A DNA stretch of 64,000 bases from Astropecten irregularis (taxonomy: Eukaryota; Echinodermata; Asteroidea; Paxillosida; Astropectinidae), in assembly GCA_963971285.1 (NCBI GenBank), contig OZ020259.1, positions 5,952,001 to 6,016,000 on the forward strand. The letters run 5' to 3'. Under the pieces are notes generated by a model. It was not told the DNA's origin. It worked only from the letters and a program-made list of their open reading frames with translations, and ran no database searches. Of the stretch, positions 3,268 through 62,029 are shown in pieces. Each line of letters begins with the position of its first letter. Within the stretch, counting starts at the first letter, position 1. Made by a program: the position numbers and the translations under genes.

Positions 3268-3986
3268 TTAAAGGCATAATACGGGATTGGTAAAGGTGAC
3301 AGAACAGCTGCAGACTGTTTATGATATGATTTGTCATGGAATAAAAACAAACCTGTGAAATTAATTTTCAGCTCATGTCATCATCAGAAACTGTTGAAAA
3401 CAGTAAAAAAAAAAATTATACCGCTCACTGTGGTATTTTCAAATCTATTCACAGGAGATCAAAAAGTTCTGTTTTGGGTTGTTATTTTTTTTTTCCGAAA
3501 CAAATTTCTGGATAAATACAGCATTTCAGCTGGAAATATTTTATATGGTACTGTATATACTAGCAAGACCAGTTACTCTCCTGAGGACGAACAGAGCACA
3601 CTGTTCGGAATGTCGAGATAATACGGTTCTTCTCAGAACCACACACTCTCACAGAAGAGATTACATGGTGTCACCGCCAACCTACCTTCCTTTTAGTACT
3701 TCCACCATGCATAGCTTCAAGTCTTACTTAATACTGGCACCATATCTTGAAAGTTATACGTAAATGTGAGGGATGTGAGACTTCAGAGTAAAATCTGAAT
3801 TCCGATTTTAACTCAGAATTTCAGCTTTTTTGTACACACCTGCTCTGTACAAAAGTATAGGAACCTTTAAATTTCAGCCTTTTCCATGGTGTTTTCAGAT
3901 TTTGTTTGTGTGGCCACTCACATTCCTGAAATATCTGTGAACTTTTCTGCTTAGGTATGTTACCAATCCTGTACTGTACCTTTAAA
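3268..3986 (-). mobile_element. Family F element, interrupted by family G
   Basis: Starts TTAAAGGCATAATACGG and continues through the F-specific phrase ACAGAACAGCTGCAGACTGT. The shared module follows (TTTCTGGATAAATACAGCAT, AAGTTATACGTAAAT) and the element ends CTGTACCTTTAAA. A family G element (3769-3927) splits the shared module. Removing it rejoins the expected GTTATACGTAAAT...CTGTGAAC order. Confidence 0.7.
3769..3927. mobile_element. Family G short element, nested in family F
   Basis: About 159 bp with inverted ends AGGGATGTGAG and CTCACATTCCT. The interior shares CTGTACAAAAGTATAGGA and TTTCAG-rich text with copies at 14014-14173 and 33318-33440. It interrupts the shared module of an F element, so it is younger than that F copy. 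Confidence 0.7.
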
Positions 3987-8253: not shown

Positions 8254-8560
8254 GGCCCAATGTCATGGAATCAGTTACAGCCTATTTTTTGTGTTTAGTA
8301 CGGCTACAAGTGAAATCTATTTCATGGAATCCGTAAGCAAGACTTTCGGTGCCTAATTGTTGGCTAACCTTGATTATTTTTTTCTTCTGCTAACACACCA
8401 GTTGTCATACATGTGCATTCTGCAGAAAGTTCCTGCTTAGTGTAGCAAGAAAGAAAACTCCCATGAAATACGCTAACCATAAGCAAAAAAATGTATTGCT
8501 AAATTGTAATAAGCAAAGAATTTTTGCTTAAATGGTAACGGATTCTATAAAATTGGGCCC
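8254..8560 (+). mobile_element. Family B foldback element
   Basis: Starts GGCCCAATGTCATGGAATCA and ends GATTCTATAAAATTGGGCCC. Interior phrases match the other B copies (CGTAAGCAAGACTTTCG, CATGTGCATTCTGCAGAAAG, CGCTAACCATAAGCAAAAAA). Confidence 0.75.
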
Positions 8561-8934
8561 TATTCTTTACCACTCTGATCACCTAAAAGACAACAGGAAA
8601 TGATTTATCGAAACGCTACCTGAAATGATGTACACATATCTACACTGTACATAATATCAGTGTACATACATATATATGCTGGTACATGTGTGTACACTGT
8701 ATACTACATGTATGCACAGTTTTTACTCACTATAGTAAGGTACAAACTATGTATAAACTTTGGAGTCCCGGACCCCATGCCGGAAGGGCATTACCGTACA
8801 TGTATGTTTCATCTACACAGGGTCCATTCTTAGGAAAATTTCATTTATCACCTCACACCTACCAGCAACCCAGCAACTATGACTCACCGTACATACAATG
8901 CATCTATACAACTTCCTCAAGTACTTGTAGTTCT
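8561..8934. other. No gene seen; GTACAT-rich
   Basis: Carries scattered ACATGTA/TGTACA words (8620-8810). The open frame at 8686-9009 runs into the next repeat and is not a gene. Confidence 0.4.
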
Positions 8935-11077: not shown

Positions 11078-11438
11078 TTAATGGTAGTATCATACTTTGG
11101 TAAGACACAAAAACGGAAATGTTCACAGATTTACGTATAACTTTATACAGGGTATGAAGATGGTGGTGGTAGAAATATACCGTTAACATTTTTCGGCCTG
11201 AAATGGTGTATTTATCCAGAAATTAGTCAAACAACTCCCGAAAATCTTTTTGATCTTTTTCAAGATCAAAAATAAGAGAGAAAAGAAATAATGTAGCTGT
11301 TTTTCACTGTTTTCTCAAAAAGTGGGCACCGTATGGGACTGAAATTTTCACAGATGACTGTTACTGTATCTTCCTTGATATTTGTGCTCATGAATCTGTA
11401 TTTCTTTGATAAAAACCAAAGTATGATATTACCTTTAT
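11078..11438 (+). mobile_element. Family D element, full length
   Basis: The type copy for D. Left end TTAATGGTAGTATCATACTT, right end AAAGTATGATATTACCTTTA. The left module contains GAAATGGTGTATTTATCCAG. The centre is a GATC hairpin (TTTTTGATC...GATCAAAAA). The right module contains AAAGTGGGCACCGTATGGGA and CATGAATCTGTATTTCTTTG. Non-coding. Confidence 0.8.
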
Positions 11439-11440
11439 AA

Positions 11441-11799
11441 GTATAGTACATGATTGGTAGAAGTCACAGAGCAGCACTCACACTTAGTCTGATCCAACAT
11501 TTGCATGAAATAATAAACTTCCTAAAATTTGAGCTCAATCGGACATCGGAGTCACCAGAAAACAGCGAAAACACCAATTCAATTTTTCTTATGAAACATA
11601 AAGAATGGTTTCGATGTTACCCCGAGATCAAAATGTTTTCTGTCTTTGTTTTACAAATTTCTGGATAGATATACCATTTCAGGCAGAAATATTTTAACGG
11701 TGTGTTTCTACCAGCACCATCTTCATACCCTGAAAGATCTACGTAAATCTGTGAACATTTGTTGTTTGGGTATACCAATCCTGTATTGCACCTTTAAAA
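11441..11799 (-). mobile_element. Family E element, abutting a D element
   Basis: The E-specific module comes first (ATGATTGGTAGAAGTCACAG, GAGCTCAATCGGACATC), then a GATC hairpin, then the module shared with D in reverse (TTTCTGGATAGATATACCAT, ATCTTCATACCCTGAAAG). It ends CTGTATTGCACCTTTAAA. It directly follows the D copy ending at 11438. Confidence 0.75.
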
Positions 11800-12004
11800 A
11801 GTACAATGATGAGTTCGTTGAATGACCAAACAAATAGACCCTGAAGATAATAAAAGAATTGAATGACTACTAAATAAATAAATAACATTTTAGTTGATGA
11901 GAATTTTTACAGGAGTTTTTTACTGGTACTTACATAAAATAAATAACCAATTCAAGTACATGTACATTGTAATACAATGTAAACTGTTCAAGTAGTAAAA
12001 TGCT
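11800..12004. other. No feature seen
   Basis: AT-rich spacer with a short AAATAAATAAAT tract near 11870. Confidence 0.3.
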
Positions 12005-12480
12005 TCAAACTGCTCGTCAGCCAAAATAACAACCTGAAATGTTTACAATACTTGAAGTTAGGAGGGCCTATTTAGATAAATAACCATTAAAAACCATTTA
12101 TTTATTTAATTCAGCGATTAACTCAACGATTAACTCAACCAAAAGATTCATAATTGGTTTTCAAAACATATTTTATAATTTTTGAAGATGTTCTGACCAA
12201 GCAAACTTCATCATCAGATAAACTTTTAGATCAAATTATTAATTTAATTCATATTTTGCTGCAACTGTTGTCCAAATGACATTACTGGTTTTATATTTCA
12301 TTCTCATTTTAATACAAAGTAATTAACTGCTGGGACCTGCTATGACCTGAAATTTATAAAATGCTTGGAGTAAGGAGGGCCTGACGCATTTCGATCATCA
12401 ATAAAGATAAAGCCTTTGAGAATGATCCTGCTAGGATCAAAACGGGTCAGGCTCCAAGCATTTACATTTTGCTTGATTTT
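12005..12480 (+). repeat. Family Q, retroelement-tail-like, rearranged
   Basis: CTGCTCGTCAGCCAAAATAA, AACCTGAAATG, GGAGGGCCT and later GACCTGAAATTTATAAAATG with GGAGGGCCTGACGCATTTCG are shared with copies at 44765-44990 and 51120-51530. The word GATCCTGCTAGGATC is a perfect short hairpin. A middle section (12080-12330) looks unrelated, so this may be two partial copies. Confidence 0.5.
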
Positions 12481-12584
12481 AGTGTACTTTGACTTTGTAA
12501 GGTTCACTTGTGGAGTCTTTAGAATGTTTTCCAGTGATTTTTAAAATTTGTATAAAAAAGCAGACCAATCAAATTCATTTCAAT

Positions 12585-12741
12585 TCATCAAATAACCACA
12601 AGGGAAACTGACTGAATTTAAAGTCATTGAAAAGTGAACGAAGAAAAATTTACTGGAGCGGGATTAGAACCGTTGACCTCCTGAATACCCTACCGGCGCT
12701 CTACCAACTTGGCCATCTAGCCCTACGATGGTGGTGTTCCC
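12585..12741 (-). repeat. Family S repeat with tRNA-like module
   Basis: In minus orientation it reads GGGCTAGATGGCCAAGTTGG (A-box-like), then ACGGTTCTAATCCC (B-box-like), then CGCTCCAGTAAATTT and CAGTTTCCCTTGTGGTTATT. The B box is degraded, so it is not a functional tRNA. GGAACACCACCAT lies on the tRNA 5' side. Confidence 0.65.
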
Positions 12742-13122
12742 AATACATGATTGGTAAAGGTCACAGGACTGCACTCAATCCTCATACTTTGTCTGATCAG
12801 ACATGTACATGAAATAATAAACCTGTGAAAATTTGAGCTCAATCGGACATCTGAGTCACGAGAAAATAGCGAAAACCCGACTCGATTTTTCTTATAAAAC
12901 ATGAAGTATAGTTTACTTTATGTTTGTTCCAAAAATCGTTCGGACGAACGATCTTTGGAAAAGACACTAAATCTTGATTTTGCTTGAAAAACCCAGCATC
13001 TGATGAACCAAGATTTCCCATGGTGACTGTTTGCACTGTTTACGAACTGTTGAGTCCATTTTCTGTCTCAAACTCAATACATTTTTTTTGGAGGCCATGC
13101 AAATCATATATGCTCCCTTTAA
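12742..13122 (-). mobile_element. Family H element
   Basis: The E-type module (AATACATGATTGGTAAAGGT, GAGCTCAATCGGACATCTG) is joined through the palindrome ATCGTTCGGACGAACGAT to an H-specific module (GTCCATTTTCTGTCTCAAAC, GGAGGCCATGCAAATC). It ends GCTCCCTTTAA. Other copies are at 20085, 36730 and 52238. Confidence 0.75.
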
Positions 13123-13937: not shown

Positions 13938-14459
13938 TATAATCATACTTTGGTGCATGTAGCATACCGAAACAGAAATCTCCACAGATCTACCTAAAAC
14001 TTACAGGGTATAACGGGATGAGATTTCTCAGATTAAAATCTGATTTCAGACTTTTTGGTTTTGGATTTCCTCACAGGCCGTGTACAAAAGTATAGGAGAT
14101 TTTCAGATTCCAGACTTTTTATGCTCCCTGTCAGCTGTTTTCAGACATTTTTATCATTGGTCAATCTCATCCTGGTACGGTAGAAAGTTAGAAACGTACC
14201 GTTAACATTATTCTGCCTGAAATGCTGTATTTATCCAGAAAAGAGTATTTAAAACCAAGGACCAAAAAAAATGTTTTGATCAAAATGAACGGTGAAAAGA
14301 TTTTTTTAAATACCGTGGACGTTTTTCACTGTTTCCTCAAAAAGTGGGCACCGTATGGGACTGTTTATGTAGATGACTGTTCATGTATTATATTTTTGCC
14401 CATAAACATGATAAATCTGCATTTCGGTGACAAAAACCAAAGTATATATTACCTTTAAA
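13938..14459 (+). mobile_element. Family D element, interrupted by family G
   Basis: The D left module (CATACTTTGGTGCATGTAGC, ACTTACAGGGTATAA) stops at 14013 and resumes after 14173 with GAAACGTACCGTTAACATTA. The right module (AAAGTGGGCACCGTATGGGA) and the end ATTACCTTTAAA are intact. The open frame at 14222-14458 is just the D element read through. Confidence 0.75.
14014..14173. mobile_element. Family G short element, nested in family D
   Basis: About 160 bp with inverted ends CGGGATGAGATT and AATCTCATCCTG. It contains GTGTACAAAAGTATAGGAGA, like the other G copies. It splits a D element between GGGTATAA and GGTA...GAAA. Confidence 0.7.
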
Positions 14460-14560: not shown

Positions 14561-15009
14561 TTAAAGGTTTACTGTAATCAAATGTACATGTAGTATATGG
14601 GTGAAAGTGCTTAAAAATTATTGCTTAATGCGTAATTAATGACTATATTAAATTAAATGTTTATGTAAATACTTAATTTTGACCCAAAAGTTACAAAATC
14701 AGTACATGTATGCCCCGCCCCCCAAAAAAGTCCTACTTGGAACCGATGCACACAACAATAGAGTGTGACGTCACTGTAGAACTAGTATAGGCTCGCACCA
14801 CAGTATACTGTGTGACATTCTGCATGTGACGTAAGGAGGGTTTTTCGTCGCGAAAAGTGGGGTGCTAATTTATGGATCTAAAATACCTTGTTTTTCTATA
14901 TATACAATATTTTTTAGCACAAACAATGCTAGACAGGTTGAGTTTTATTTAATTTAACAATACAGAAGTTTTTAACTTCATATGTGTTTTGATTACAGTA
15001 AACCTTTTA
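14561..15009 (+). mobile_element. Family K foldback element
   Basis: Inverted ends TTAAAGGTTTACTGTAATCA and TTGATTACAGTAAACCTTTTAA-like text. The interior has a palindromic TGACGTCA (14766-14773), ATGTGACGTAAG and CGCGAAAAGTGGGGTGCTAA. The second copy is at 25011-25479 in the same orientation. Confidence 0.8.
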
Positions 15010-16977: not shown

Positions 16978-17343
16978 TGACATTTGACATTGGTAGCATA
17001 CCAAACAGAAATCTTCACAGATTTACCTAAACTTACAGGGTATAAAGATGGTGATGGTAGAAACATACCGTTACAATTTTTCAGCCTGAAATGCTGTATT
17101 TTTCCAGAAAAGAGTACAACCAAAGACCCAGAACAGTTTTGATCTCAGGGTAAGATCAAAACTCCTTTGAATAGATTTGAAACTTGAAAAATACCGTGAG
17201 CGTTTTCCACTGTTTTCTCAAAAAGTGGGCACCTTATGGGACTGGGAATTTCACAGATGACACATCACTGTATCTTTCTTGATATTTTTGCCCATGAATC
17301 TGTATTTCTTTGTTAAAAACCAAAGTATGATACTACCTTTAAA
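16978..17343 (+). mobile_element. Family D element
   Basis: Left module with TTGGTAGCATACCAAACAGA, centre GTTTTGATCTCAGGGTAAGA (hairpin with ATCAAAAC), right module with AAAGTGGGCACCTTATGGGA, end ATGATACTACCTTTAAA. The left terminus lacks the TTAAAGGTA start. Confidence 0.75.
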
Positions 17344-19683: not shown

Positions 19684-20048
19684 TTAAAGGTAGTATCATA
19701 CTTTGGTAAGAAACAAAAACAGAGATGTTCACAGATTTATGTATAACTTACAGGATATGAAGATGGTGGTAGTAGAAACATGCCGTTAAAATCTGTCCGC
19801 CTGAAATGGTGTTTTTATCCAGAAATGAGTAAAACAACGTCCGAAAATCTTTTTAATCTTTTAAAAGATCAAAAATAAAAGAGAAAAGACTTAAGAAATA
19901 CTGTGGCTGTTTTTCACTGTTTTCTCAAAAAGTGGGCACCGTATGGGACTGGAATTTTTCACAGATGACTGTTACTGTATCTTACTTAATACTTTTGCCC
20001 ATGAATCTGTATTTCTTTGATAAAAACCAAAGTATGATACTACCTCTA
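19684..20048 (+). mobile_element. Family D element, full length
   Basis: Starts TTAAAGGTAGTATCATACTT and ends ACCAAAGTATGATACTACCT. Centre AATCTTTTAAAAGATCAAAA. This copy shows the near-perfect terminal inversion of the family best. Confidence 0.85.
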
Positions 20049-20084
20049 ATGTAAGAAAAATACATCAGTCAAGTTTCTTTCCTT

Positions 20085-20501
20085 TGCATTTAAAAATAGC
20101 GTACAGGATTTGCAAAACAATTTTTGAGTTTGAGACAGAAAATGGACTCAACAGTTCGTAAACAGTGCAAACAGTCACCATGGGAAATCTTGGTTCATCA
20201 GATGCTGGTTTTTTTCAGGGAAATCAAGATTTAGTGTCTTTTAAAAAGATCGTTCGTCCGAACGATTTAGTTGCATTTCGAAACCGTGGTGTAACCGTGA
20301 AGAAATTAAGAAAATTAACCGTGAAGGATTCGGAGGGGGGCAAGATTATTTCAGCCGTATTTCTGCTATCCAGATGAACAAAGCGTAAAATGGTACATGA
20401 AACATCTGTAAGGAAGTTGAAGACCTTCACTTCTGTTTAAGTACCAAATTCAGCCAAAACGCACATCTTTGCAAATCCTAATATGCTCCCTTTTAATAAC
20501 A
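20085..20501 (+). mobile_element. Family H element, rearranged
   Basis: The H-specific module (TACAGGATTTGCAAAACAAT, GACAGAAAATGGACTCAACA, GATCGTTCGTCCGAACGATT) is present. The usual E-type second module is replaced by unrelated sequence, and the element closes with GCAAATCCTAATATGCTCCC, the inverse of an H terminus. Confidence 0.6.
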
Positions 20502-21693: not shown

Positions 21694-22024
21694 AGGTAAA
21701 CTTGTACAGGATTGGTAGCATACCCAAACAGAAATGGAAACATACCGTTAAAATGTATTAACCTGAAAATCGTGTATTTATCCAGAAATTTGTAAAACAA
21801 AGACGGAAAACAGTTTTGATCTTGGCGTAAGATCAAAACTAGTCTTTATGATTTACATGTATAAGAAAAATTGAGTCAGGTTTTCGCTATTTTCTCGTGA
21901 CTCAGATATCCGATTGAGCTCAAATTTTCACAGGTTTATTATTTCATGTACATGCTGGATCGGACAAAGTGTGAGTGCTGTTCTGTCACCTTTACCAATC
22001 ATGTATTATACATGTACCTTTAAA
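21691..22024 (+). mobile_element. Family E element
   Basis: Starts TTTAAAGGTAAACTTGTACA with the shared module shortened. Centre GTTTTGATCTTGGCGTAAGA. The E module follows (CGATTGAGCTCAAATTTTCA, GTGAGTGCTGTTCTGTC) and the element ends GTACCTTTAAA. It shares one TTAA with the F element to its left. Confidence 0.75.
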
Positions 22025-22449: not shown

Positions 22450-22958
22450 ATTGTAAATTTTTGGCCCATTTTGTATGTAACACAAATGTTCCGTGTACAT
22501 CATATCCCTGCATACAGTATGTACAATTTGTACTTACATGTAGTATGTGGGATAGCCCCTACTGGGATAGCTCTATGCACACAATATTCAGAGACATTCC
22601 CTCCCATTCCAATTCATGCTAGGATTTCCTCATACATGTGTAGGTCTCATGAAATAGAAGAGTAAACACATTCTTTGCTTTGTGGCAGTAACTTAATATC
22701 GGTTGACCTGATTTGGCCCCAGCCATAGGCCGACAGTATCTAGAGTCAAAACCATGGTTATTTATCTTTTTCCATGTACTATGTGTTAGTGGGGGCGTGC
22801 ATTTACGTACATTGATTCGGTGAGTTTTAAAGAGGATTGTATACTGGATTTTTTCTTTGTTGTTGCCGCCTTCGATTTCCTTTTTCTGTGAAGTGCAGTA
22901 CACCTGTAGGCTGTTTGTGCCCAAGCACAGAGCAGTGTTTATGATTGGGGCATCAAAG
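22450..22958. other. No gene seen
   Basis: Unique-looking sequence; no open frame of note. Confidence 0.3.
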
Positions 22959-23706
22959 TAATGATCAGGTGCAGCAAGGCAATGACTAGGGGCACCAAGG
23001 CAATGACCAGGGACACCAAGGCAATGACTAGGGGCACCAAGGCAATGACCAGGGACACCAAGGCAATGACTAAGGGCACCAAGGCAATGACCAGGGGCAC
23101 GAAGGCAATGACCAGGGGCACCAAGACAATGACTAGGGGCACCAAGGCAATGACTAGGGGCACGAAGGCAATGACCAGGGACACCAAGGCAATGACCAGG
23201 GGCACCAAGGCAATGACCAGGGACATCAAGGCAATGACCAGGGACACCAAGGCAATGACCAGGAGCACCAAGGCAATGACCAGGGGCACCAAGGCAATGA
23301 CCAAGGACACCAAGGCAATGACCAGGGACACCAAGGCAATGACCAGGGACACCAAGGCAATGACCAGGAGAACCAAGGCAATGCCCAGAGGCACCAAGGT
23401 AATGACCAGGGGCACCAAGGCAATGACCAGGGACACCAAGGCAATGGCCAGGGACATCAAGGCAATGGCCAGGGGCACCAAGGCAATGATCAGGAGAACC
23501 AAGGCAATGACCAGGGGCACCAAGGCAATGACCAGGGGCACCAAGGCAATGACTAGGGTCCTTTTAAAGGGCACCAAGGCAATGGCCAGGGGCACCATGG
23601 CAATGACCAGGGGCACCAAGGCAATGACCAGGGGCACCAAGGCAATGACCAGGGGCACCAAGACAATGACCAGGGACACCAAGGCAATGACCAAAGGCAC
23701 CAAGGT
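22959..23706 (+). repeat. 21-bp minisatellite, ~35 units
   Basis: Unit GGCAATGACCAGGGGCACCA plus A, repeated about 35 times with point changes and one short insertion (GTCCTTTTAAAG near 23556). Because 21 is divisible by three, frames stay open on both strands (MTRGTKA units plus, VIALVPL units minus). There is no sign of splicing, of a start context or of a non-repeat coding flank. Confidence 0.9.
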
Positions 23707-25010: not shown

Positions 25011-25479
25011 TTAAAGGTTTACTGTAATAATCAAATTTGGGAAAGGGGTGAAAGTGTTCTAAAACTATTGCTTAATATATAATTCACGACCATATTTGTA
25101 TATTTCTATGTACCCGGTAAGTGCTTAATTTTGACCAAAAAGTTACAAATTCAGTACATGTACATGTAGAGTATGCCCCGCCCCCTAAAATAGTTTGGAA
25201 CCGATCCACGCAACAATAGCGTGTGACGTCACCTACAGAACTAGTATACATGTAGGCTTGCACCATGTACAGCATACTACGTGACGTTCTGCATGTGACG
25301 TAAGCAAGGTTTTTCATCGCGAAAAGTGGGGTGCTAAATTATGGGTTTAAAATACCTCCTTTTTGAATATACACTGTACAATATCTTTTAGCACAAACAA
25401 TGATAGACAGGTTGAGTTTTATAGCAATACAGACTAAGTTTTTAACTTTATATGAGTTTTGGTTACAGTAAACCTTTAA
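25011..25479 (+). mobile_element. Family K foldback element
   Basis: Starts TTAAAGGTTTACTGTAATAA and ends GGTTACAGTAAACCTTTAA. It shares ATGCCCCGCCCCCTAAAA, a TGACGTCA (25224-25231), GCATGTGACGTAAGC and CGCGAAAAGTGGGGTGCTAA with 14561-15009. Confidence 0.8.
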
Positions 25480-26365: not shown

Positions 26366-26455
26366 TTTTTGATGGGTGCGTGTGTGTGTGATGGATGGGT
26401 GTTTGCTATCATGTTTGTAACTGCACGTAAGGCTGCAGCGAGCCATGACAGCTTC

Positions 26456-26655
26456 NNNNNNNNNNNNNNNNNNNNNNNNNNNNNNNNNNNNNNNNNNNNN
26501 NNNNNNNNNNNNNNNNNNNNNNNNNNNNNNNNNNNNNNNNNNNNNNNNNNNNNNNNNNNNNNNNNNNNNNNNNNNNNNNNNNNNNNNNNNNNNNNNNNNN
26601 NNNNNNNNNNNNNNNNNNNNNNNNNNNNNNNNNNNNNNNNNNNNNNNNNNNNNNN
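26456..26655. other. Assembly gap (200 N)
   Basis: Exactly 200 N bases, which may be a conventional gap size rather than a measured one. Open frames reported across it are meaningless. The gap follows a tandem repeat and a TG-rich patch, a common cause of assembly breaks. Confidence 0.99.
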
Positions 26656-27467: not shown

Positions 27468-27845
27468 TAAAGGTACATGTACATACATATACTATCATAC
27501 TTTGGTAGCATACCAAAACAGAAATCTTAACAGATTTACCTGTAACTTACTGGGTATAAAGATGGTACTTAGAAACATACCGTTTAAATCTTTCTGCCTG
27601 AAATATATCCAGAAAAAAGTACAACCAAAGACCAAAAAAACCCCAGTTTTGATCTCGGGGTGAGATCAAAACTTCTGTGAACAGATTTGAAATTACCATG
27701 AACATTTTTCAAGAGTTTTCTCAATAAGTGTGCACCGTATGGGACTGGAAATTTCACAGATGACTGTTACTGTATCTCCCTTGAGATTTTTGCCCACGAC
27801 TCTGCAGTTCTCTGACAAAAACCAAAATATGAAGCCACCTTTAAA
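27468..27845 (+). mobile_element. Family D element
   Basis: Starts TTTAAAGGTACATGTACATA, with GTACAT words inserted before CTATCATACTTTGG. Centre GTTTTGATCTCGGGGTGAGA, right module with AAGTGTGCACCGTATGGGAC, end GCCACCTTTAAAA. Confidence 0.75.
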
Positions 27846-28335
27846 AGCGAGTACCAGCTGCACTTGTGTTGGTCACATTCATTACATACATAACTCACGA
27901 GTGTAGGGGGAAAAACAGAAATGTGTTGGCAGCAAAATGAACACATACTCCTGCAGACTCTGACGAAGAAAAAAAAACCTCGGAAAGTACGTCGCCTCCA
28001 GTTTGGGTGGCAGTGGACTGTGTTGGTGACAGATTCTTGTTTCCGTTATTATCAAATTAGAGTTTGGGGGTGTTGCAGACCTGTCCCAGTTAACAAAAAT
28101 GGTGTCGTGATGTTTTTTTTTCTCCCTCTTTTACTGGGCTAATGTTGTTGTGTCACGAAAAGTTCAAGGGAAATTTTTGTAATATTGGGGAAAAAAAATG
28201 AGTGTTACATACTTTTCGTAAACATTGTAGGCCTATTTGATTGAAAGCCGACTTCACCAGTTGTGCCAAGGCTAACTGGCATAAAAAGCTGGTAGTGTAC
28301 TGCACATGTTCATGTTCATGTGTGTGCATTTGCAC
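27846..28335. other. No gene seen
   Basis: Unique-looking, with short A and T runs (27969, 28108). Confidence 0.3.
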
Positions 28336-31357: not shown

Positions 31358-32734
31358 CAGAAACATGTTTTTTAAAAATAGACAGAAACATATTTTTTAA
31401 AAATAGACAGAAACATTTTTTTTAAAATAGACAGAAACATGTGTTTAAAAATAGACAGAAACATATTTTTAAAAATAGACAGAAACATTTTTTTTTTTAA
31501 ATAAACGGAAACATATTTTTTAGAAATAGACAGAAACATTTTTTTTTAAAATAGACAGAAACATATTTTTAAAAAATAGACAAACATATTTTTAAGAAAT
31601 AGACAGAAACATATTTTTTTTAAATAGACAGAAACATATTTTTTAAGAAAAGACAGAAACATATTTTTAAAAAATAGACAGAAACATTTTTTAAAATAGA
31701 CAGAAACATGTGTTTAAAAATAGACAGAAACATATTTTTTAAAAAAGACAGAAACGTGTTTTTTAAAAATAGACAGAAACATATTTGTTAAAAATAGACA
31801 GAAACATATTTTTTAAAAATAGACAGAAACATATTTTTTTAAAATAGACAGAAACATGTTTTTAAAAATAGACAGAAACATATTTTTTAAAAAAGACAGA
31901 AACGTGTTTTTTAAAAATAGACAGAAACATATTTGTTAAAAATAGACAGAAACATATTTTTTTAAAATAGACACAAACATATTTTTAAAAATAGACAGAA
32001 ACATGTTTTTAGAAATAGACAGAAACATATTTTTAAAAATAGACAGAAACATATTTTTAAAAATAGACAGAAACATATTTTTAAAATAGACAGAAACATA
32101 TTTTAAAAATAGACAGAAACATATTTTAAAAATAGACAGAAACATATTTTTTTAAATAGACAGAAACATATTTTTTGAAAATAGACAGAAACATATTTTT
32201 TAAAAATAGACAGAAACATGTTTTTAAAAATAGACAGAAACATGTTTTTAAAAATAGACAGAAACACATTTTTAAAAATAGACAGAAACATATTTTTAAA
32301 AATAGACAGAAACATATTTTTAAAAATAGACAGAAACATGTTTTTAAAAATAGACAGAAACATATTTTAAAAAATAGACAGAAACATATTTTTTTAAAAT
32401 AGACTGAAACATATTTTTAAAAATAGACAGAAACATATTTTTAAAAATAGACAGAAACATGTTTTTAAAAATAGACAGAAACATATTTTTTTTAAATAGA
32501 CAGAAACATATTTTTTAAAAATAGACAGAGACATATTTTTTTTAAATAGACAGAAACATATTTTTTAAAAATCAACAGAAACATGTTTTTAAAATAGACA
32601 GAAACATGTTTTTAAAAATAGACAGAAACATATTTTTAAAAATAGACAGAAACATATTTTTTTTAAAATAGACAGAAACATAATTTTTAAAAATAGACAG
32701 AAACATATTTTTTAAAAATAGACAGAAACATGTT
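31358..32734 (+). repeat. AT-rich 24-26 bp tandem array
   Basis: Roughly 55 units of AGACAGAAACATATTTTTAA plus AAAT, 1.38 kb long. Units differ mainly in the lengths of the T and A runs. The array ends at GTTTGGCCCAGC. Lys/Arg/His and Phe/Ser/Ile frames through it are repeat artefacts. Confidence 0.95.
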
Positions 32735-33021
32735 TGGCCCAGCAGAATTTCTGTTTTTATTTCAGATGTTGTGAATGTGTATTTGTTTTCTTTCACTGGA
32801 ACGTGGCTCATGCTACTGTTTACATACATGTACATGTATAGCTGAAGTTTGTTCAGCCACGTTTTTCTCATGCATTAGGCATCTATGGGGAATCATGTAC
32901 TATACACACGTGTCATTTTATTTGATAACCAATTGTATCCTATGTAGGGCTGTACTGCATCATAAAACCCTAGTTAAAATGAGTGTTGTGAAATCGACCC
33001 TAGGCCTGGATACTGGATAGT
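32735..33021. other. No gene; family C fragment
   Basis: 32938-33006 (CCTATGTAGGGCTGTACTGC, GTTGTGAAATCGACCC) is a partial C-type repeat end. The rest is unremarkable. Confidence 0.4.
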
Positions 33022-35465: not shown

Positions 35466-35831
35466 GTGTAATTAATACATGATTGGTAAAGGTCACAGAA
35501 CAGCACTCACACTTTGTGTAATCAAACATGTACATGAAATAATAAACCTGTGAACATTTGAGCTCAATCTGAGTCATGAGAAAAAATGCGAAAACCTGAC
35601 TCAATTTTTCTTATAATACTAAAAGAATGGTTTTGATCTTAATACGCCGAGCTCAAAACAGTTTTCTGTCTTTGTTTGACTACCCGGTACTTTCTGGATA
35701 AATACACCATTTCAGGCGGAAATATTTTAATGGTATGTTTCTGCCAGCATCATCTTCATATCTTTAACGTTATACGTAAATCTGTGAATGTGTCTGTTTG
35801 GGTATGTTACTAATCCTGTACTGTACCTTAG
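35466..35831 (-). mobile_element. Family E element
   Basis: Starts GTAATTAATACATGATTGGT and has GAGCTCAATCTGAGTCATGA, central GATCTTAATACGCCGAGCTC, and the shared module in reverse. It ends CCTGTACTGTACCTTAG. The central hairpin is partly lost. Confidence 0.75.
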
Positions 35832-36108: not shown

Positions 36109-36425
36109 TTAAAGGTACTATCATACTTTGTAAACAGAAATCTGAAATCTTCACAGATTTACCCATAACTGACAGGGTATAAAGATGGTGATAATCGAAA
36201 CATACAGTTAAAATAGTTCTGCCTGAAATGCTGTATTTATGATCACAAAAACAATTTGGATCTTTTGATGATAAAAAATAACATTGAAAAGATTTGGAAA
36301 ATACTGTGGGCGTTTTTCACCGTTTTCTCAAAAAGTGGGCACCGTATGGGACTGGAAATTTTAAAGATGACTTTCTTGATATTTTTGCCCATGAATCTGC
36401 ATTTCTTTGACAAAAATCATGAATA
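36109..36425 (+). mobile_element. Family D element, eroded
   Basis: Starts TTAAAGGTACTATCATACTT and keeps AAAGTGGGCACCGTATGGGA and CATGAATCTGCATTTCTTTG, but lost part of the left module, one arm of the hairpin and the right terminus. Confidence 0.7.
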
Positions 36426-36729: not shown

Positions 36730-37112
36730 TTAAAGGGAGCATATGGGATTTGCAAGGCCTCCAAAATAAAATAATTGAGTTTGAGACTGAAAATGGACTC
36801 AACAGTTTGTAAACAGTTCAAACAGTCACCATGGGAAATCTTGGTTCATCAGATGCTGGGTTTTTCAAGGAAATCAAGATTTAGTGTCTTTTCCGAAGGT
36901 CGTTCGTCCAAACGATTTGTGGAACAAACATAAAGTAAACTATTCTTCATGTTTTATAAGAAAAATCGAGTCGGGTTTTTGCTATTTTCTCGTGACTCAG
37001 AATGTCCGATTGAGCTCAATGTTTACAGGTTTATTATTTCATGTACATGTTTGATCAGACAAAGTATGAGTGCTGTCCTGTGACCTTTACCAATCATGTA
37101 TTGTACCTTTAA
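36730..37112 (+). mobile_element. Family H element
   Basis: Starts TTAAAGGGAGCATATGGGAT. Then come the H module (GAGACTGAAAATGGACTCAA, GGTTCATCAGATGCTGGG), the GTTCGTCCAAACGAT centre (one mismatch from the palindrome), and the E-type module to ATGTATTGTACCTTTAA. Confidence 0.8.
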
Positions 37113-37230: not shown

Positions 37231-37612
37231 GTTTCCCCAAAGGGCAAATATACAACATTGGCAATAAACCGAAACAGAAATGTCCACAAATGTATGTAAG
37301 GGGGTATAAAGACAGTAATGGTAGAAACATACTGTAAAAATGTTTTTGCCTGAACTGCTGTATTAATCAAGAATAGAGTACAAAACCAAACACCAAAACA
37401 ATTTTGATCTTCTGAAGATGAGACAGCTTTTCCCTAAAAACTTGGCATTTATTACAGTTGCAATGTTTTTGGGTTGTTTTCTACTGTTTCCAATGATGAC
37501 ATGAGCTGGAAATTTCACAGGTTTGTTTTTATTCCATGACAAATCAAATTATGAACAGTCTGCAGCTGTTCAGTCACCTTTACCAATGTTGTACACATGT
37601 ACATGCCCTTAA
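37231..37612 (+). mobile_element. Family F element
   Basis: Shared module (AACCGAAACAGAAATGTCC, GAACTGCTGTATTAATCAAG), centre ATTTTGATCTTCTGAAGATG, and the F module (TGAGCTGGAAATTTCACAGG, ATGAACAGTCTGCAGCTGTT) ending near CATGCCCTTAAA. Confidence 0.75.
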
Positions 37613-39552: not shown

Positions 39553-40016
39553 GAAAAGCTACAGTATTTGTTTTTTTCTACACACATAATGTATGGCTGC
39601 AAAGTGCTTTTTGGGAAATGACGGTTATTAAACTGGCACAGAACATTAACAGTTTTTGGCTGGTACTCTTCAAGCAGAATTACATTACATTTGTCGATAC
39701 TACTGTGATCTTAGGGCATGTGTTACCAGGGCAACCAGATTTCATGTATGTGGTCCATGCAGTTTGTTGTTTGCTGTGCGTAATTGCAGTATTATGACGT
39801 TTGCAGAGCCGTGAAATTGCATCGAGCTCAAAAACTGAAATACTGCCGTATAAAACGGCGACTGTTCCAAGTACAGTATATGTTTAGTATTGTACTGTAT
39901 GGTTTTATTGCGTGGTATTTATAAGAGCGCAAGTGAAGCCAGTTATTGAGTATGAAATGGAGAAGTTTGTTTGCAACTTGAGCTCATTCTCAGGGTTGAG
40001 CGTATTTGGGTCCATT
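39553..40016. other. No gene seen
   Basis: Unique-looking spacer. Confidence 0.3.
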
Positions 40017-40348
40017 GACATACAGATTCATGGGCAAAAATACCACGACAAATACAGTAACAGTCATCTGTGAAAATTTCAGTCCCATACGGTGCCCACT
40101 TTTTGAGAAAACAGTGAAAAGCAGCCACAGTATTTCTTAAGTATTTTCTCTTTTATTTTTGATCTTTTAAAAGATCAAAAAGATTTTCGGTCGTTGTTTA
40201 ACTAATTTCTGGATGAATACACCATTTCAGGCGGAAACATTTTAACGGTATGTTTCTACCACCACCATCTTCATACCCTGTAAGTTATACGTAAATCTGT
40301 GAAGATTTCTGTTTTGGTATGTTACCAAAGTATGATACAACCTTTAAG
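40017..40348 (-). mobile_element. Family D element
   Basis: Reverse orientation: ACATACAGATTCATGGGCAA, TCCCATACGGTGCCCACTTT, the central hairpin TTGATCTTTTAAAAGATCAA, then CACCATTTCAGGCGGAAACA, ending ACCAAAGTATGATACAACCT. Confidence 0.8.
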
Positions 40349-40930
40349 ACATCCAGGCCGGATGTCTATTTTAGACACAAGGCCCTCTGCAGGCCTGATC
40401 GTGAATAATGAACGCCCCGTCCCAGCTCGACTTCCCCCTCCCCTCACCCCTTTTCTCCCCAAACCCCCTTTGCCCCAAAGTTGTCCCATGTTTGTACAAA
40501 CGGCAGCTTGATATTTGCGAAAATTTGTCTCGCCTCCAGGTTATGTTTTTCCTGCCTTCTGGCTTTTCTTAACCCACATTTTCTGTTTTTTTTTATCGCC
40601 GGGTGAAGAATGTTATCGCTGAAGATCAGAACCGGGGCATTTTTTTTTGTTGGAGCTAGTTCCAGTCCCATTAAGAAGACGGGTGTGTTCAGTGTTGCCT
40701 GGTACCATCTCGCTGCCTTTTTCCTTTCCTCCCCCTTTCCTATTTTATTTTTTTTTCTATTTTATCTGGGTTTCTGGAATGAATGCCTGGTTGGGCCTGA
40801 CGCCGGCAAGAGATATTGACTTTGACGGGCAAGTCGTAATTGGATGTAACCGATCGTTGTCGTAACGGGGCAGCATTTAAGATACCCGCTCCAACGCACA
40901 CTCTCACACGCAAAGAAACAAGGCAGAAAT
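40349..40930. other. Unique island, CT-rich
   Basis: No gene called. C/T tracts at 40430-40480 and 40720-40770. GTAATTGGATGTAACCG and CGTTGTCGTAACGGGG near 40835-40870 lie outside any repeat. Confidence 0.35.
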
Positions 40931-41717
40931 AGCAAAGAAATTCCGGGGTGCCTCGTACGACGGATATGAGCCACCTCGAGACAAAAACCAGCCGTTAGTC
41001 TTTATACCCTTGGTATTTATCTTTCCCTCGCTAAAGCCTCAAATTTGTCAAAACGTCCAAGAAATGACTTCACGGCATCCTCAAATCCTAATAAGTTGTA
41101 AATATCTTGAAAAGAAATAGCAACCACACAGAAAAAAAGCAAAGAAATTCCAGGGTGCCTCGTACGACGGATATGAGCCACCTCGAGACAAATACCAGCC
41201 GTTAGTCTCTTTATACCCTCGGTATTTTGTCTTTCCCTTGCTATAGCCTCAAATTTGTCAAAACGTCCAAGAAATGACTTCACGGCATCCTCAAATCCTA
41301 ATCAGTTGTAAATATCTTGAAAAGAAATAGCAACCACACAGAAAAACGAAGAAATTCCGGGGTGCCCGTACGACGGATATGAGCCACCTCGAGACAAATA
41401 CCAGCCGTTAGTCTTGATACCCTCAGTATTTATCTTTCCCTTGCTAGAGCCTCAAATTTGTCCAAACGTCCAAGAAACGACTTCACGGCATCCTCAAATC
41501 CTAATTTATCTTGAAAAGAAATAGCAACCACACAGAAAAAAGAAGAAATTCCGGGGTGCCCGTACGACGGATATGAGCCACCTCGAGACAAATACCAGCC
41601 GTTAGTCTTGATACCCTCGGTATTTATCTTTCCCTTGCTATAGCCTCAAATTTGTCAAAACGTCAAAGAAATGACTTCACGGCTTCCTCAAATCCTAATC
41701 AGTTGTAAATATCTTGA
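40931..41717. repeat. ~205-bp tandem repeat, four units
   Basis: Units begin near 40931, 41138, 41348 and 41541 with GAAATTCCGGGGTGCC and CGACGGATATGAGCCACCTC. On the minus strand each unit has a T-rich tract ending in AG before ATATTTACAAC, then an open stretch (LLGFEDAVKSFLGRFDKFEA in the first two). The fourth unit has a stop there (TTG to TTT shift giving TGA), so coding is not maintained. Confidence 0.9.
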
Positions 41718-42248
41718 ACAGCAAATTCTTATCTTTTGTGGCACTGATGCTATCATGAAAATTTGTTTGGTTTCGCCCTGGAGTGTTGTTGTGTTTTGTT
41801 GTTGTGGTTTTGTTTTTCTACTTTCTCTCTCAAAGGTACTGTAAAAATGTACCATCGTGTGCTGGTGTACATGTATGTACATGTGTAACATCAAAGGTGC
41901 CGACGTAGCGTCGGGGCGACTCGGTTACGATTGAGTTTGTTAATGTGATTTGAAGCGGTGGGGATGTGGTTGAAGACGGCATCTGATGAGATCGGCCGAG
42001 GGGAAAGGTTGGATTTGATTGTCCGCCAGGTGGACTCTTTGTGCTCGCCGGACCGTTTGGGCATTAAAGAGCCCCTGCGTCAACAAACGGAACGGTCGGG
42101 ATTTTGTCCGTGTTGACAAGGGGAGGATTTGCTTGTTCAGCCCCGGTGTTGCGGTCTCAGCTGTCTCCCAGTCTCAGGGGTCTCCCTTTACCAAATATGG
42201 TCTAATACATGAACAGTGTACGTCATGCCATCTCTACGAGTCCAATCT
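41718..42248. other. Unique island, no gene called
   Basis: 41900-42180 is fairly GC-rich (CGTAGCGTCGGGGCGACTCG, GATCGGCCGAGGGG, GCTCGCCGGACCGTTTGG) and free of known repeats. The frame at 42019-42372 runs into the next D element and has no domain. Confidence 0.3.
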
Positions 42249-42591
42249 TAAAGGTAGTATCATACTTTGGTTTTTATCAAAGAAATACAGATTCATGGGC
42301 AAAAAATATCAAGACAGATACAGTAACAGTCATCTGTGTAAATTTCAGTCCCATATGGTGCCCACTTTTTGAGAAAACGGTGAAAAACAGCCACAGTATT
42401 TCTTAAGTCTTTTCTCTTTTATTTTTGGTTGTTGTTTGACTAATTTCTGGATAAATTCTGTACACCATTTCGTGCGGAAAACTTTTAACGGTATGTTTCT
42501 ATCACCACCATCTTCATACCCTGTAAGTTAGACGTAAATCTGTGAACATTTCTGTTTTGGTTTCTTACCAAAGTATGATAGTACCTTTAAT
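42249..42591 (-). mobile_element. Family D element
   Basis: Starts TTAAAGGTAGTATCATACTT and reads the right module first (CAGATTCATGGGCAAAAAAT, GGTGCCCACTTTTTGAG). The central hairpin is deleted (TTTTATTTTTGGTTGTTG). Ends AGTATGATAGTACCTTTAA. Confidence 0.75.
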
Positions 42592-43014: not shown

Positions 43015-43412
43015 TTTAAAGGTACAGTACAGGATTGGTAACATGTATAATCAAACAGAAATGTTCACATATTTTAAATACCTATTTTAAATACTTCTAA
43101 CTTTCAGGGTATGAAGATGGTGCTGGTAGAAGCATACCGTTAAAATGTTTCCGCCTGCAATGGTGTATTTATCCAGAAATTAGTACCGGTAAAACAAAGA
43201 CCGAAACAGTTTTGATCTCAGGGTTAGATCAAAACCATTCTTTATATTTGTATTTAAAGAAAAATCAGTCGGGTTTTCGCTATTTTCTTGTGACACAGAT
43301 GTCCAATTGTGCTTAAATACATTTTCACAGGTTCATCATTTCACGTACATGCTGGATCAGACAAAGTATCAGTTCTGTAAAACCTCTACCAATCATGTAT
43401 TATATCTTTAAA
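43015..43412 (+). mobile_element. Family E element
   Basis: Starts TTTAAAGGTACAGTACAGGA. Shared module (GGGTATGAAGATGGTGCTGG), centre GTTTTGATCTCAGGGTTAGA, E module, end ATGTATTATATCTTTAAA. A small duplication of TTTTAAATAC lies at 43073-43095. Confidence 0.8.
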
Positions 43413-43778
43413 GGGCATGTACAACATTTGTTAAAGGTGACAGAGCAGCTGCAGTCTGTCCATAATTTGATTTGTCATGAAATAAAAACAAACCTGTGAA
43501 ATTTCCAGCTCAATTGATGATTGGAATCAGTAGAAAACAACGAAAAACCGTTGCAATTGGTACACCAAATTGTGTGAGAAAACCTGTCTCATTTTTTATC
43601 TTGCCAAGATCAAAAAAATGTTTCAGTGTTTGGTTTTACCCTTTTGTGGATAAATACAGCATTTCAGGCAAAAAATGTTTCACAGTATGTTTCTACCATT
43701 ACTGTCTTTATACACTGAAAGTTAAACACGTAAACCTGTGAACATTTCTGTTTTGGTTGGTTACCAATATCCGAGGTA
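43411..43778 (-). mobile_element. Family F element, abutting E
   Basis: Starts AAAGGGCATGTACAACATTT, F module (GAGCAGCTGCAGTCTGTCCA), central ATCTTGCCAAGATCAAAA, shared module in reverse. It shares TTTAAA with the E element ending at 43412. Confidence 0.75.
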
Positions 43779-46070: not shown

Positions 46071-46420
46071 TCGAGATTTGCTTTAGCATGAATTATTTGA
46101 TATGAAGCGGGGCTTTCCTTTGCATTTGAGCATCTGTGAGGGTGAGCCAAAAAAAAAGGGGACGAAAATGGATCCAGCTTGTGTGATCAAATGTGCTATC
46201 TGGCCATCCATCCATCCCAGACCACAATGTATGCACAGGCACTGTCATGTGTAATTGATACCCCCAGGCCCTTACACATTAGCTGTCACACTCCCGTAAA
46301 TCTGGACGCAGAAAAGGTTTTGCTCTAGGAAAAATCAAGCAGGCCTCCGATTTTTTAATGAGAAAATCTCTGTACCATTTGTAGTTTCCCCCTTCTTCAG
46401 ATCATTGCCCCCCCTTTTTT
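46071..46420. other. Unique island, candidate conserved non-coding DNA
   Basis: 46230-46400 carries GTGTAATTGATACCCCCAGG, TTAGCTGTCACACTCC and TTTTTTAATGAGAAAATC with no repeat relationship. TGTCA and TAAT words cluster. Judged only by appearance. Confidence 0.3.
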
Positions 46421-46781
46421 TAAAGGTAATATCATACTTTGGCTTTTATCGAAGAAATACATGGGCAAAAATATCAAGGAAGATACAGTAACAGTCATCT
46501 GTGAAAATTTCAGTCCCATGTGGTGCCCACTTTTTGAGGAAACAGTGAAAAACAGCTACAGTATTTTTAGTCTTTTTCTCTTTTATTTTTGATCTTTTGA
46601 AAGATCAAAAAGATTTTCAGTCGTTGTTTTACTAATTTCTGGATAAATACACCATTTCAGGCGGACAGATTTTAACGGTATGTTTCTACCACCACCATCT
46701 TCATACCCTGTAAGTTATACGTAAATCTGTGAATATTTCTGTTTTGGTTTCTTAGTATCAAAGTATGATACTACCTTTAAC
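46421..46781 (-). mobile_element. Family D element, full length
   Basis: Starts TTTAAAGGTAATATCATACT and ends GTATGATACTACCTTTAA. Centre GATCTTTTGAAAGATCAAAA. Reverse orientation. Confidence 0.85.
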
Positions 46782-49531: not shown

Positions 49532-49912
49532 ATGTATGTGCAACATTGGTAACAAACCAAAACAGAAATCTTCACAGATATATACGTACATCTTGCAGGG
49601 TATGAAGATGGTGCTGGCAGAAACATACCGGTACGTCCGCCTGGAATGGTGTATTTATCCAGAAAGAGTACAGAAAGAGTAAAACCAATTCACCAAAAAC
49701 ATTTTTTATCTTGGCAAGGTCAAAAATCTTTCTTTGTGTTTTATAAGAAAAATTAAGTCGAATTTTCGCTATTTTCTCGGGACTCAGGTGTCCAATTGAG
49801 TTCAAATTTTCACAGAATTATCATTTCATGTATATGCTGGATTAGACAAAGTGTGAGTGCTGTTCTGTGACCTTTACTGACGTTGTACATGTACATGTAC
49901 ACACCCTTTTAA
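49532..49912 (+). mobile_element. Family E element, abutting family I
   Basis: ATGTATGTGCAACATTGGTA, GGGTATGAAGATGGTGCTGG, centre TTATCTTGGCAAGGTCAAAA, E module (TCCAATTGAGTTCAAATTTT), end ACACACCCTTTTAA. Confidence 0.7.
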
Positions 49913-50514: not shown

Positions 50515-50861
50515 TTAAAGGTAGCACACCGAAACAGAAATGTTCACAGATTTACCTATAACTACAGGGTATGAAGATGGTGCTGGTAGAAACATAGTGG
50601 TAAAATTGTTCCGTTTGAAATAGTGTATTTATCCAGAAATTAGTAAAACAACGACCGAAAATCTCTTTGATCTTTTAAAAGATCAAAAATAAAAGAGAAA
50701 AGACTTAAGAAATACTGTGACCGTTTTTCACGATTTTCTCAAAAAGTTGGCACCGTATGGGACAGAAATTTTCACAGATTACTTTTACTGTTTCTTCCTT
50801 GATATTTGTGCCCATGAATCTGTAAATTTGTAACAAAAACCAAAGTATGATATTACCTTTA
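50515..50861 (+). mobile_element. Family D element
   Basis: Starts TTAAAGGTAGCACACCGAAA, skipping the ATCATACTTTGG part. Centre TTGATCTTTTAAAAGATCAA, end AAAGTATGATATTACCTTTA. Confidence 0.8.
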
Positions 50862-52237: not shown

Positions 52238-52609
52238 TAAAGTATTAGGATTTGCAAGGCCTCCAAAAAAATGATTGAGTTTGAGACAGAAAATGGACTC
52301 AACAGTGCGTAAACAGTGCAAACAGTCACCATGGGAAATCTTGGTTCATCAGATGCTGGGTTTTTCAAGCAAATCAAGATTTAGTGTCTTTTCCAAAGAT
52401 CGTTCATCCGAACGATTTTTGGAATAAACATGAAGTAAACTATTCTTCATATTTTTATAAGAAAAATCGAGTCGGGTTTTTGCTAGTTTCTCGTGACTCA
52501 GATGTCCGATTGAGCTCAAATTTTCACAGGTTTATTATTTCATGTACATGTTTGATCAGACAAAGTATGAGTGCAGTCCTGTGACCTTTACCAATCATGT
52601 ATTATACCT
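52238..52609 (+). mobile_element. Family H element
   Basis: H module (GGATTTGCAAGGCCTCCAAA, GACAGAAAATGGACTCAACA), centre GATCGTTCATCCGAACGATT, E-type module, end ATGTATTATACC. Confidence 0.8.
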
Positions 52610-53069
52610 AGGCACAAGCGATTTTCACGATTCATGACTTAAGATTTGAACCTAACCTTTGTCTGTGTATTTGAAGCGCCCAGTTTGTTTGAAATTATGA
52701 AAGTTGTTCAACAATGAGTTACTGTAGGAACAAATGGAAGATGAAGACGCAGAAAGAAACCCATGACATTGACTTGGAAAAAAAAATCTAGGAGACAAGC
52801 CAAAAGCAGATCAATGATTGCAAACACATGCACTTACTCTTCTTTTTTTTTCTCTGTGTGTGTGAGAGAGAAAAAAGGGGGGAAAAGCATGATATAGAAA
52901 TGTCTTGAAACCCGGAGGACAAGTTAGCGAGCTTCTCCTGTTACATGGCTGGGTCTTATTGATTTTAAAGGGATACTTCGGTCGGGTAAATAGCGGTGGG
53001 GGTTGGTTTGCGTCAGCTTTAATCTAGTCAGTGGTGTACTACTGTACCTGGGGCTAACTTTTTTTTGGT
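52610..53069. other. Unique island, no gene seen
   Basis: GTGTGTGTGAGAGAG run near 52855; otherwise unremarkable. Confidence 0.3.
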
Positions 53070-56024: not shown

Positions 56025-56407
56025 TTTTTAAAAGGTATGATTGGTTTAAGGTCACAGAACAGCACTCACACTTTGTCTGATCCAACATACACTGTACACA
56101 TGCATATATGAAATGATAAACCTCTGAAAATTTGAGCTCAATTGGACATGTATCTGAGTCAGGAGAAAATAGCAAAACCCCAGCTCAATTTTACCTGTAT
56201 AACATAAAGAATTGTGTAGATCTTACCGCGAGATCAAAACTGTTTTCAGTCTTTCTTTGACTAATTTCTGGATAAATACACCATTTCAAGCAAAAAAATT
56301 TTAACGGTATGTTTCTACCAGCACCATCTTCACACCCCAAAATTTATGTAAATTTGTGATCATTTCTGTTTGGGTATGTAACCAATCATGTACTGTACCA
56401 ATAAAAG
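56025..56407 (-). mobile_element. Family E element
   Basis: AAAAGGTATGATTGGTTTAA, GAGCTCAATTGGACATGTAT, centre GATCTTACCGCGAGATC, shared module in reverse, end ATGTACTGTACCAATAAAAG. Confidence 0.75.
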
Positions 56408-61457: not shown

Positions 61458-61833
61458 TAAAAGTATAATACATTATTGGTAAAGGTCTCAGAACAGCAAT
61501 CACACTTTTATTTGTCTTATCCAGCATGTACATGAAATGATAAACCCGTGAACATTTGACCTCAATCAGACATCTGAGTCACGAGAAAACTGCGAAAACC
61601 TGACTCAATTTTTCTTATAAAATATAAAGAATGGTTTTGATCTTACTCCAAGATCAAAACTGTTTCCGGTCTTTGTTTGACTCATTTCTAGATAAATTAA
61701 TACACCATTTCAGGCAGAGACATTATAACTGTATGTTTCTACCATCACCATCTTCATACCCTGTAAGTTATAGCTAAATTCTGTGAAGATTTCTGTTTTG
61801 GTCTGCCACCAAAAGTATGATTGTATCTTTAAA
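61458..61833 (-). mobile_element. Family E element
   Basis: TTAAAAGTATAATACATTAT, centre GATCTTACTCCAAGATCAAA, shared module (TCTTCATACCCTGTAAGTTA), end AGTATGATTGTATCTTTAAA. The shared-module end resembles the D terminus. Confidence 0.75.
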
Positions 61834-62029
61834 ACGAAGAAAGACGAAAGAAAACACCACCTACTGTACATGTGGACACATGAAAAGGTCTAGGATGAGC
61901 TTGGATAGTGCTTGCAAGGTTGTAACAACTCAGGAAAAACAAATGCCCAGGGATAACATTTGATCCTGTAGAATGTTTTCATTGGTTGCCTCATTGATTT
62001 CTCAGAGTAGAGAGAGAGAGAGGGAGACG
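61834..62029. other. No feature seen
   Basis: GAGAGAGAG run at 62009-62020. Confidence 0.3.

Follow-up and report, generated by a model that had tools for sequence, protein, structure and literature searches.

In the window, by which we mean the whole 64,000-nucleotide stretch of DNA that was analysed, 24 two-half elements were counted with one HMM per half, comprising 10 L+D, 7 L+E, 3 L+F, 3 E+H and 1 G+H elements, and a further eight halves were found alone (Table 1). These numbers are close to the 29 whole or partial copies that had been proposed in a sequence-only reading of this DNA, and the half-elements, junctions and palindromes described there are real. All 12 of its named examples are present with the composition given: L+D at 11078, 19684 and 46421, L+E at 11441, 35466 and 61458, L+F at 3268, 37231 and 43411, and E+H at 12742, 36730 and 52238. 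The five half-modules that it distinguished all exist, and are joined by a sixth that had been missed, G, which pairs with H at ~20081-20500. Likewise, the half that it called shared (L) is indeed common to D, E and F elements except that its outer ~20 bp vary by type, and the F module is real but comprises at least three sub-types rather than one. The TTAAAGG-like outer ends were also borne out, in that TTAAAGG occurs 42 times in the window against a shuffle mean of 14.5 (0/100 shuffles as high).

Table 1. Two-half elements of the window, in order of position.
Coordinates	Strand	Element	Remarks
3268..3564	-	L+F	L incomplete; outer end F2-like by eye
11078..11440	+	L+D (young D)	hairpin TTTTTGATC...GATCAAAAA
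11441..11797	-	L+E	directly adjoins D element at TTAA-like junction
12742..13122	+	E+H	corresponds to E-L-H element without its middle; hairpin ATCGTTCGGACGAACGAT
14189..14457	+	L+D	incomplete at 5'
16985..17342	+	L+D, type Db	old D with E-type hairpin
19684..20048	+	L+D (young D)	
20081..20500	-	G+H	native family of H
21737..22011	+	L+E	incomplete at 5'
27490..27846	+	L+D, type Db	
35466..35829	-	L+E	
36109..36419	+	L+D	decayed
36730..37112	-	E+H	E to H on minus strand
37250..37609	+	L+F, type F1	
40013..40347	-	L+D	
42248..42590	-	L+D	both ends TTAAAGG
43016..43408	+	L+E	adjoins F element
43408..43774	-	L+F, type F1	
46420..46780	-	L+D	both ends TTAAAGG
49538..49886	+	L+E	
50520..50861	+	L+D	
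52239..52610	-	E+H	E to H on minus strand
56037..56403	-	L+E	
61458..61834	-	L+E	old-D-like stretch within L half

Several other features were noted in the surroundings of the elements. There is another TTAAAGG-ended family of ~470 bp, whose copies (window 25011-25479 and 14561-15007, and L018:7407-7846) are 76-78% identical and in which no tie to L, D, E, F, G or H was noticed. Window positions 22947-23705, 31358-32735, 40927-41726 and 53077-53765 are taken up by long tandem arrays (periods 21, 24, 194 and 232 bp), and a run of N lies at ~26455-26655 (seen as X in two reading frames). By eye, tRNA-like sequence, perhaps from SINEs, stands beside some elements (window 12660-12730, the start of locus L049 and the end of locus L099). 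The window contained no Rfam families and, with ARAGORN under the bacterial code, no tRNA genes.

The assembly comprises 475.7 Mb in 168 contigs, and 22 of the contigs touched by our searches are each 12-39 Mb in length. Combinations of halves were tabulated in a 264-kb sample made up of the window and 20 stretches of 10 kb each, taken at even intervals along contigs C1 and C8. Additional copies were fetched from 20 of 39 scored places each for H, E, F, G and the three-part E-L-H element described below (ELH), and for D from 7 of 39 places besides the window's own, the places fetched being those named first or of special shape. Because fetched copies are biased toward query-like ones, only the counts from the 264-kb sample are free of this choice, and even these were drawn from a window that had itself been picked, plus two contigs. 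The copy alignment contained 81 sequences, of which 74 were used for trees; five D copies with other L clusters, one ELH copy (L006) and one odd F were left out.

Pairs in the 264-kb sample numbered 32 L+D, 16 L+E, 4 L+F, 3 E+H, 1 G+H, 1 D+D (D facing D) and 1 H-L, the last of which belongs to an E-L-H element at locus L014, and the lone halves were 4 D, 2 E, 1 F and 3 L. All paired L halves but one faced D, E or F, always in the same orientation, and no L+G, L+L or D+E pairs occurred in the sample. Among the fetched copies the partner was L in 20/20 for E and in 18/20 for F, the other two F copies being without a recognisable L. L with D, E and F is thus one MITE family of fixed polarity and not a set of independent modules. 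When the right-half consensus sequences were aligned globally, the E-F score was reached by none of 1000 shuffles, and the weaker E-D and D-F scores by 11 and 32 of 1000, respectively. In the 81-copy alignment TTTTC-CT-TTTTCT and AAATTTTCACAG stay in register across the right halves, and therefore the earlier remark that D, E and F share AAATTTTCACAG at a similar place fits homology of the right halves. Judged by these alignments, the E and F right halves can be regarded with firm confidence as old diverged versions of one right half, and the D right half is likely to be another, its homology being drawn from the weak scores above and the two in-register islands. The suggestion that the three modules are old duplicates accordingly stands for E and F and is likely for D, and the opposite possibility, that they are unrelated modules, was rejected for E-F and is unlikely for D.

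The outer ends follow the partner rather than the half to which they are attached. The outer ~20 bp of L fell into a D-type cluster in 30/35 D elements and into an E-type cluster in 20/26 E elements, and for 20 F elements these ends were of F1 type in 12, D type in three, E type in three and decayed in two; in the consensus sequences, too, the outer end of L resembles by eye the end of its partner. The outer L end of one D element (L014:8530-8870) has been replaced, at ~8554-8850, by 41 bp of D end in inverted orientation (88%), suggesting that one end of an element can be copied onto the other, extending its terminal repeat. TTAA flanks both consensus ends. In single copies exact TTAAAG was present at the L end in 42/81 and YTTTAA at the R end in 51/81, with both in 27/81, and the G end carried TTAAAGG in 18 of 20 copies.

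In consensus, E, young D, old D, F1, F2 and GH all begin with AGG and end with CCT inside TTAA, and so have 5'-RR (AG) termini; Db, in which the left end is too decayed, and F3, with a single copy, give no call. Based on TTAA and the AGG...CCT ends, the elements are likely to be of the Kolobok/T2-MITE type. The AGGRR terminal motif of T2-MITEs was found only in GH (AGGGA), the corresponding letters being AGGTA in E and D and AGGGC in F1. The AGG...CCT termini do not fit a piggyBac MITE. It is TTAA with termini other than 5'-RR that distinguishes piggyBac, according to the part of PMC9587614 drawn on here. Matches to PF20700 were identified at 23 places in the genome, and at L129:1561-3663 there is a 701-codon open frame matching this (Mutator-like) transposase. 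We take PF20700 to cover Kolobok. No matching TTAA-flanked TIR pair was found at two PF20700 loci read over 5.4-5.5 kb: TTAA-flanked terminal repeats were not found within 5.4 kb at L129, and the second locus (L130) has one matching end, of D type, that looks like a nearby MITE. Stretches of this length may be too short, since full Xenopus Kolobok copies are 9-12 kb according to the part of PMC6004289 consulted.

The subfamilies differ in how their segments are related. Between types, left-half segments are 77-97% alike, and when D, E and F types are compared the right half gives 22-71% for its inner, middle and outer parts, with the drop in identity placed at the hairpin; E and young D, for example, are 91-97% identical in L and 38-55% in R outside the core. 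Young and old D are 98-100% identical in the middle and outer R and also have their ends in common, versus 87-93% in L. The inner part of the young D left half is 97% identical to E and 88% to old D, and its outer part is 97% identical to F1 and 87% to old D; young D is an F1- and E-like L interior flanked by D-type ends. F2 (three copies) has the end, L and hairpin of E, continues with a D-like inner R and then the outer R of F, and closes with an E-like end. Db (three copies, also counted within old D) is a D element with the hairpin of E, bounded at columns 167-174 and 200/201, and F3 (one copy) combines D ends, the L of old D, an E-like hairpin stretch and the right half of F. Segments of one copy thus belong to different subfamilies, as in the chimeras of the Galileo transposon, and by this segment comparison young D, Db, F2 and F3 are demonstrably mosaics of other subfamilies.

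The trees agree with this picture, bearing in mind that they rest on 132 and 94 columns and that their bootstraps had not settled. The tree of L splits {old D, F1, F3} from {young D, E, F2} with support of 97/93, and the right types require five changes on it (minimum two) versus two on the tree of R. F as a single L clade was rejected (AU p 0.004); D as a single L clade was not (AU p 0.14), its likelihood being 26.5 lower and 0/200 bootstrap trees containing it. The conflict between the two trees supports the earlier proposal insofar as it held that segments have been exchanged. A difference in mutation rate between the halves was rejected as an explanation, because the median divergences of L and R within subfamilies (0.096/0.086 for young D, 0.148/0.116 for E, 0.147/0.105 for F1, 0.138/0.203 for old D, where R is the higher, and 0.150/0.058 for F2, where the opposite holds) are far closer than the step between types. 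The lower R divergence in the E and F sets arises because most of these copies were fetched by their right half.

To locate the exchanges, parents were assigned along a path over the four mosaic types under three penalties, which gave 13, 11 or 10 switches. At every penalty five of these fell in columns 165-208, that is, the hairpin and its margins (12% of columns), for a binomial P of 0.013 (5/13), 0.006 (5/11) or 0.003 (5/10), values that are post hoc for switches that are not independent, the hairpin zone and the mosaic types having been chosen after a first two-parent run showed switches. Terminal-repeat edges held 3, 3 or 2 of the remaining switches, and 5, 3 or 3 lay elsewhere, including the right half and L. 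The two-parent run also placed switches in the single E copies at 61463 and 49538, in L as well as at the hairpin and terminal repeats, and detected none in a third (L018:1588). When folded as a single DNA strand, an L+D copy was more stable than shuffles (z -3.4, 0/100 as good) and an E+H copy slightly so (z -2.0, 2/100 as good), with the central stem predicted in both. The hairpin is a favoured breakpoint and not the sole one.

The history of the E+H elements is a separate matter, since H belongs to a different family, GH. Nineteen of 20 fetched G copies, including a partial one (L099), continue into H; in L106 (1-509) G ends at the left arm of the hairpin and is followed by other sequence. 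GH shows no relation to L or R outside the terminal ~20 bp. An older kinship of G and H with L and R was considered and rejected, 11 of 12 comparisons made without the ends having given at least 79/300 shuffles as high, and the 10/300 for the R of old D against H being unimpressive given 12 tests. The 20 fetched H copies, all from places besides the window's own, comprised 18 that face E, one with a reduced left half (L048) and one longer element (L045) of about 520-560 bp, in which E and hairpin 1 are followed by L (from ~position 66), a ~60-bp linker, hairpin 2 and H. Further copies of this ELH element are present at L006 and L014, and a query spanning its inner junction was matched at full length (1-106 or 1-107 of 107) in 40/40 of the places scored, which include its own and come from 1673 candidates. 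All 20 fetched ELH copies have L and H and 18/20 have a strong E, the exceptions being L116 (a scrap of E) and L117 (no E); L113 holds an internal D fragment.

Alignment of the consensus sequences establishes that E+H elements equal the fused ELH element minus its middle: an internal 161 columns (about 160 bp) are missing, starting at the left arm of hairpin 1 and stopping ~20 bp short of hairpin 2, and few sites differ elsewhere. E+H, which had been taken as one of the swaps at the hairpin, is therefore not a swap of that kind; loss of the interior of a three-part element accounts for it. In the 329 kb searched, only ELH and EH copies matched the linker, and no intact E-L adjoining G-H was found in the sequence examined. 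The 264 kb contains five pairs of element ends no more than 14 bp apart, versus 0.51 expected; the highest value in 2000 random placements was also five. The E+H chimera is best read as the outcome of a fusion followed by a deletion. The reverse order, in which E+H was the first chimera and ELH formed later as EH recombined with an L+E element, would agree with the presence of both in many places and with their few differences outside the missing middle, but we regard it as improbable because EH retains ~15-20 bp of the ELH linker beside hairpin 2. The lower median divergence of EH (0.048 in 13 copies versus 0.088 in 20 ELH copies) points the same way, albeit from sets that selection by similarity has skewed toward young copies, those of EH having been hand-picked as complete.

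Two other accounts of the L-D/E/F elements need to be weighed. Had there been no exchange at all, D, E and F would be lineages that merely diverged, with L conserved as it is needed for transposition. The in-register alignment of the right halves and the general likeness of L among all types would follow from this, yet young D matches old D almost exactly in the ends and throughout the middle and outer R while the inner part of its L is closest to E and the outer part to F1. In addition, F2 and F3 combine segments of different types, and the L and R trees conflict; we consider this account very unlikely. The idea of the sequence-only reading, that halves are exchanged as units through the hairpin with a cruciform or hairpin as the reactive site, captures more of the evidence: exchange is real, the hairpin zone is over-represented among the switches, Db took precisely its hairpin from E, one of 20 G copies stops at the left arm, and the central stem is predicted in both folds. 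Whole halves are not the rule, however: L, the right half and the terminal-repeat edges all hold further switches, outer ends do not move along with the half, and EH is a deletion product. Moreover, the 264-kb sample contained few fixed combinations and no reciprocal product, nor was one present in the 20 G copies, and part of what that reading had named in advance as contradicting shuffling is therefore what was found. The hairpin also need not be an active agent, since its arms are an identity island, where homologous exchange alone predicts switches. On balance, exchange of halves as units seems unlikely to us.

We consider it probable instead that this is a Kolobok/T2-like MITE family that has diversified by ectopic exchange or template switching at identity islands, together with fusion of neighbours and internal deletion. 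The elements are non-autonomous DNA transposons of 340-400 bp that lie at TTAA, start with AGG and end with CCT. Mosaics would arise when one copy is repaired or replicated on another, by ectopic gene conversion or template switching, and the switches would fall in short stretches common to the subfamilies, with the hairpin favoured and the inner edge of the terminal repeat next. A transposase would demand matched ends, and therefore the outer ~20 bp would fit the partner. For ELH, two elements probably landed side by side at a common TTAA and lost their facing inner ends, leaving a unit bounded by an E end and an H end, from which E+H could then have been derived by loss of the middle.

MITE families usually arise without a visible origin; here many copies of the probable direct precursor of a chimera persist, and several subfamilies resolve into parent segments whose switch points have been mapped, so that the birth of MITE families becomes testable in one genome. 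It is also a case in which a central palindrome may serve as a breakpoint. More tentatively, and with considerable doubt on our part, the central palindrome might be a recombination hot spot during transposition or gap repair, such that TTAA MITEs would continually be put together anew from existing left halves, right halves and ends, with this process and the fusion of abutting elements giving rise to new active families.

No literature on mosaic Kolobok elements or T2-MITEs was apparent by title among the matches listed. From bacteria, Tn3-derived miniature elements (TIMEs) reportedly take part in building mosaic transposons (PMC4133298), a likeness that we draw by description only. The T2-MITEs of Xenopus (Kolobok superfamily), as described in the part of PMC6004289 consulted, resemble the elements studied here in their TTAA target, AGG termini, short length and many subfamilies, and differ in having AGGRR where D and E elements have AGGTA; no account of mosaic subfamilies was seen in that part of the source. 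KolobokP, a Kolobok lineage of seven animal phyla, also has a composite architecture, but in the portion of PMC9587614 drawn on its coding DNA is enclosed by long direct repeats (~450 or 660 bp) at the termini, versus 340-560 bp overall for the elements here. The nearest precedent is provided by the chimeras of Galileo (Drosophila, P superfamily), for which the sections of PMC3573991 consulted describe copies whose two ends belong to different subfamilies, or whose interior belongs to another subfamily than the ends, including 12 two-end chimeras without matching TSDs among 170 copies, and propose ectopic recombination and conversion as the source of new subfamilies. Chimeras, and the birth of subfamilies by exchange, are thus already known. 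Galileo is, however, a long-TIR element with 7-bp TSDs (PMC3573991, same sections), and what sets the present family apart from those parts of the Galileo account is that each of its mosaics apart from F3 is represented by several copies, that breaks often fall at the central palindrome, and that one chimera still has its probable precursor in the genome.
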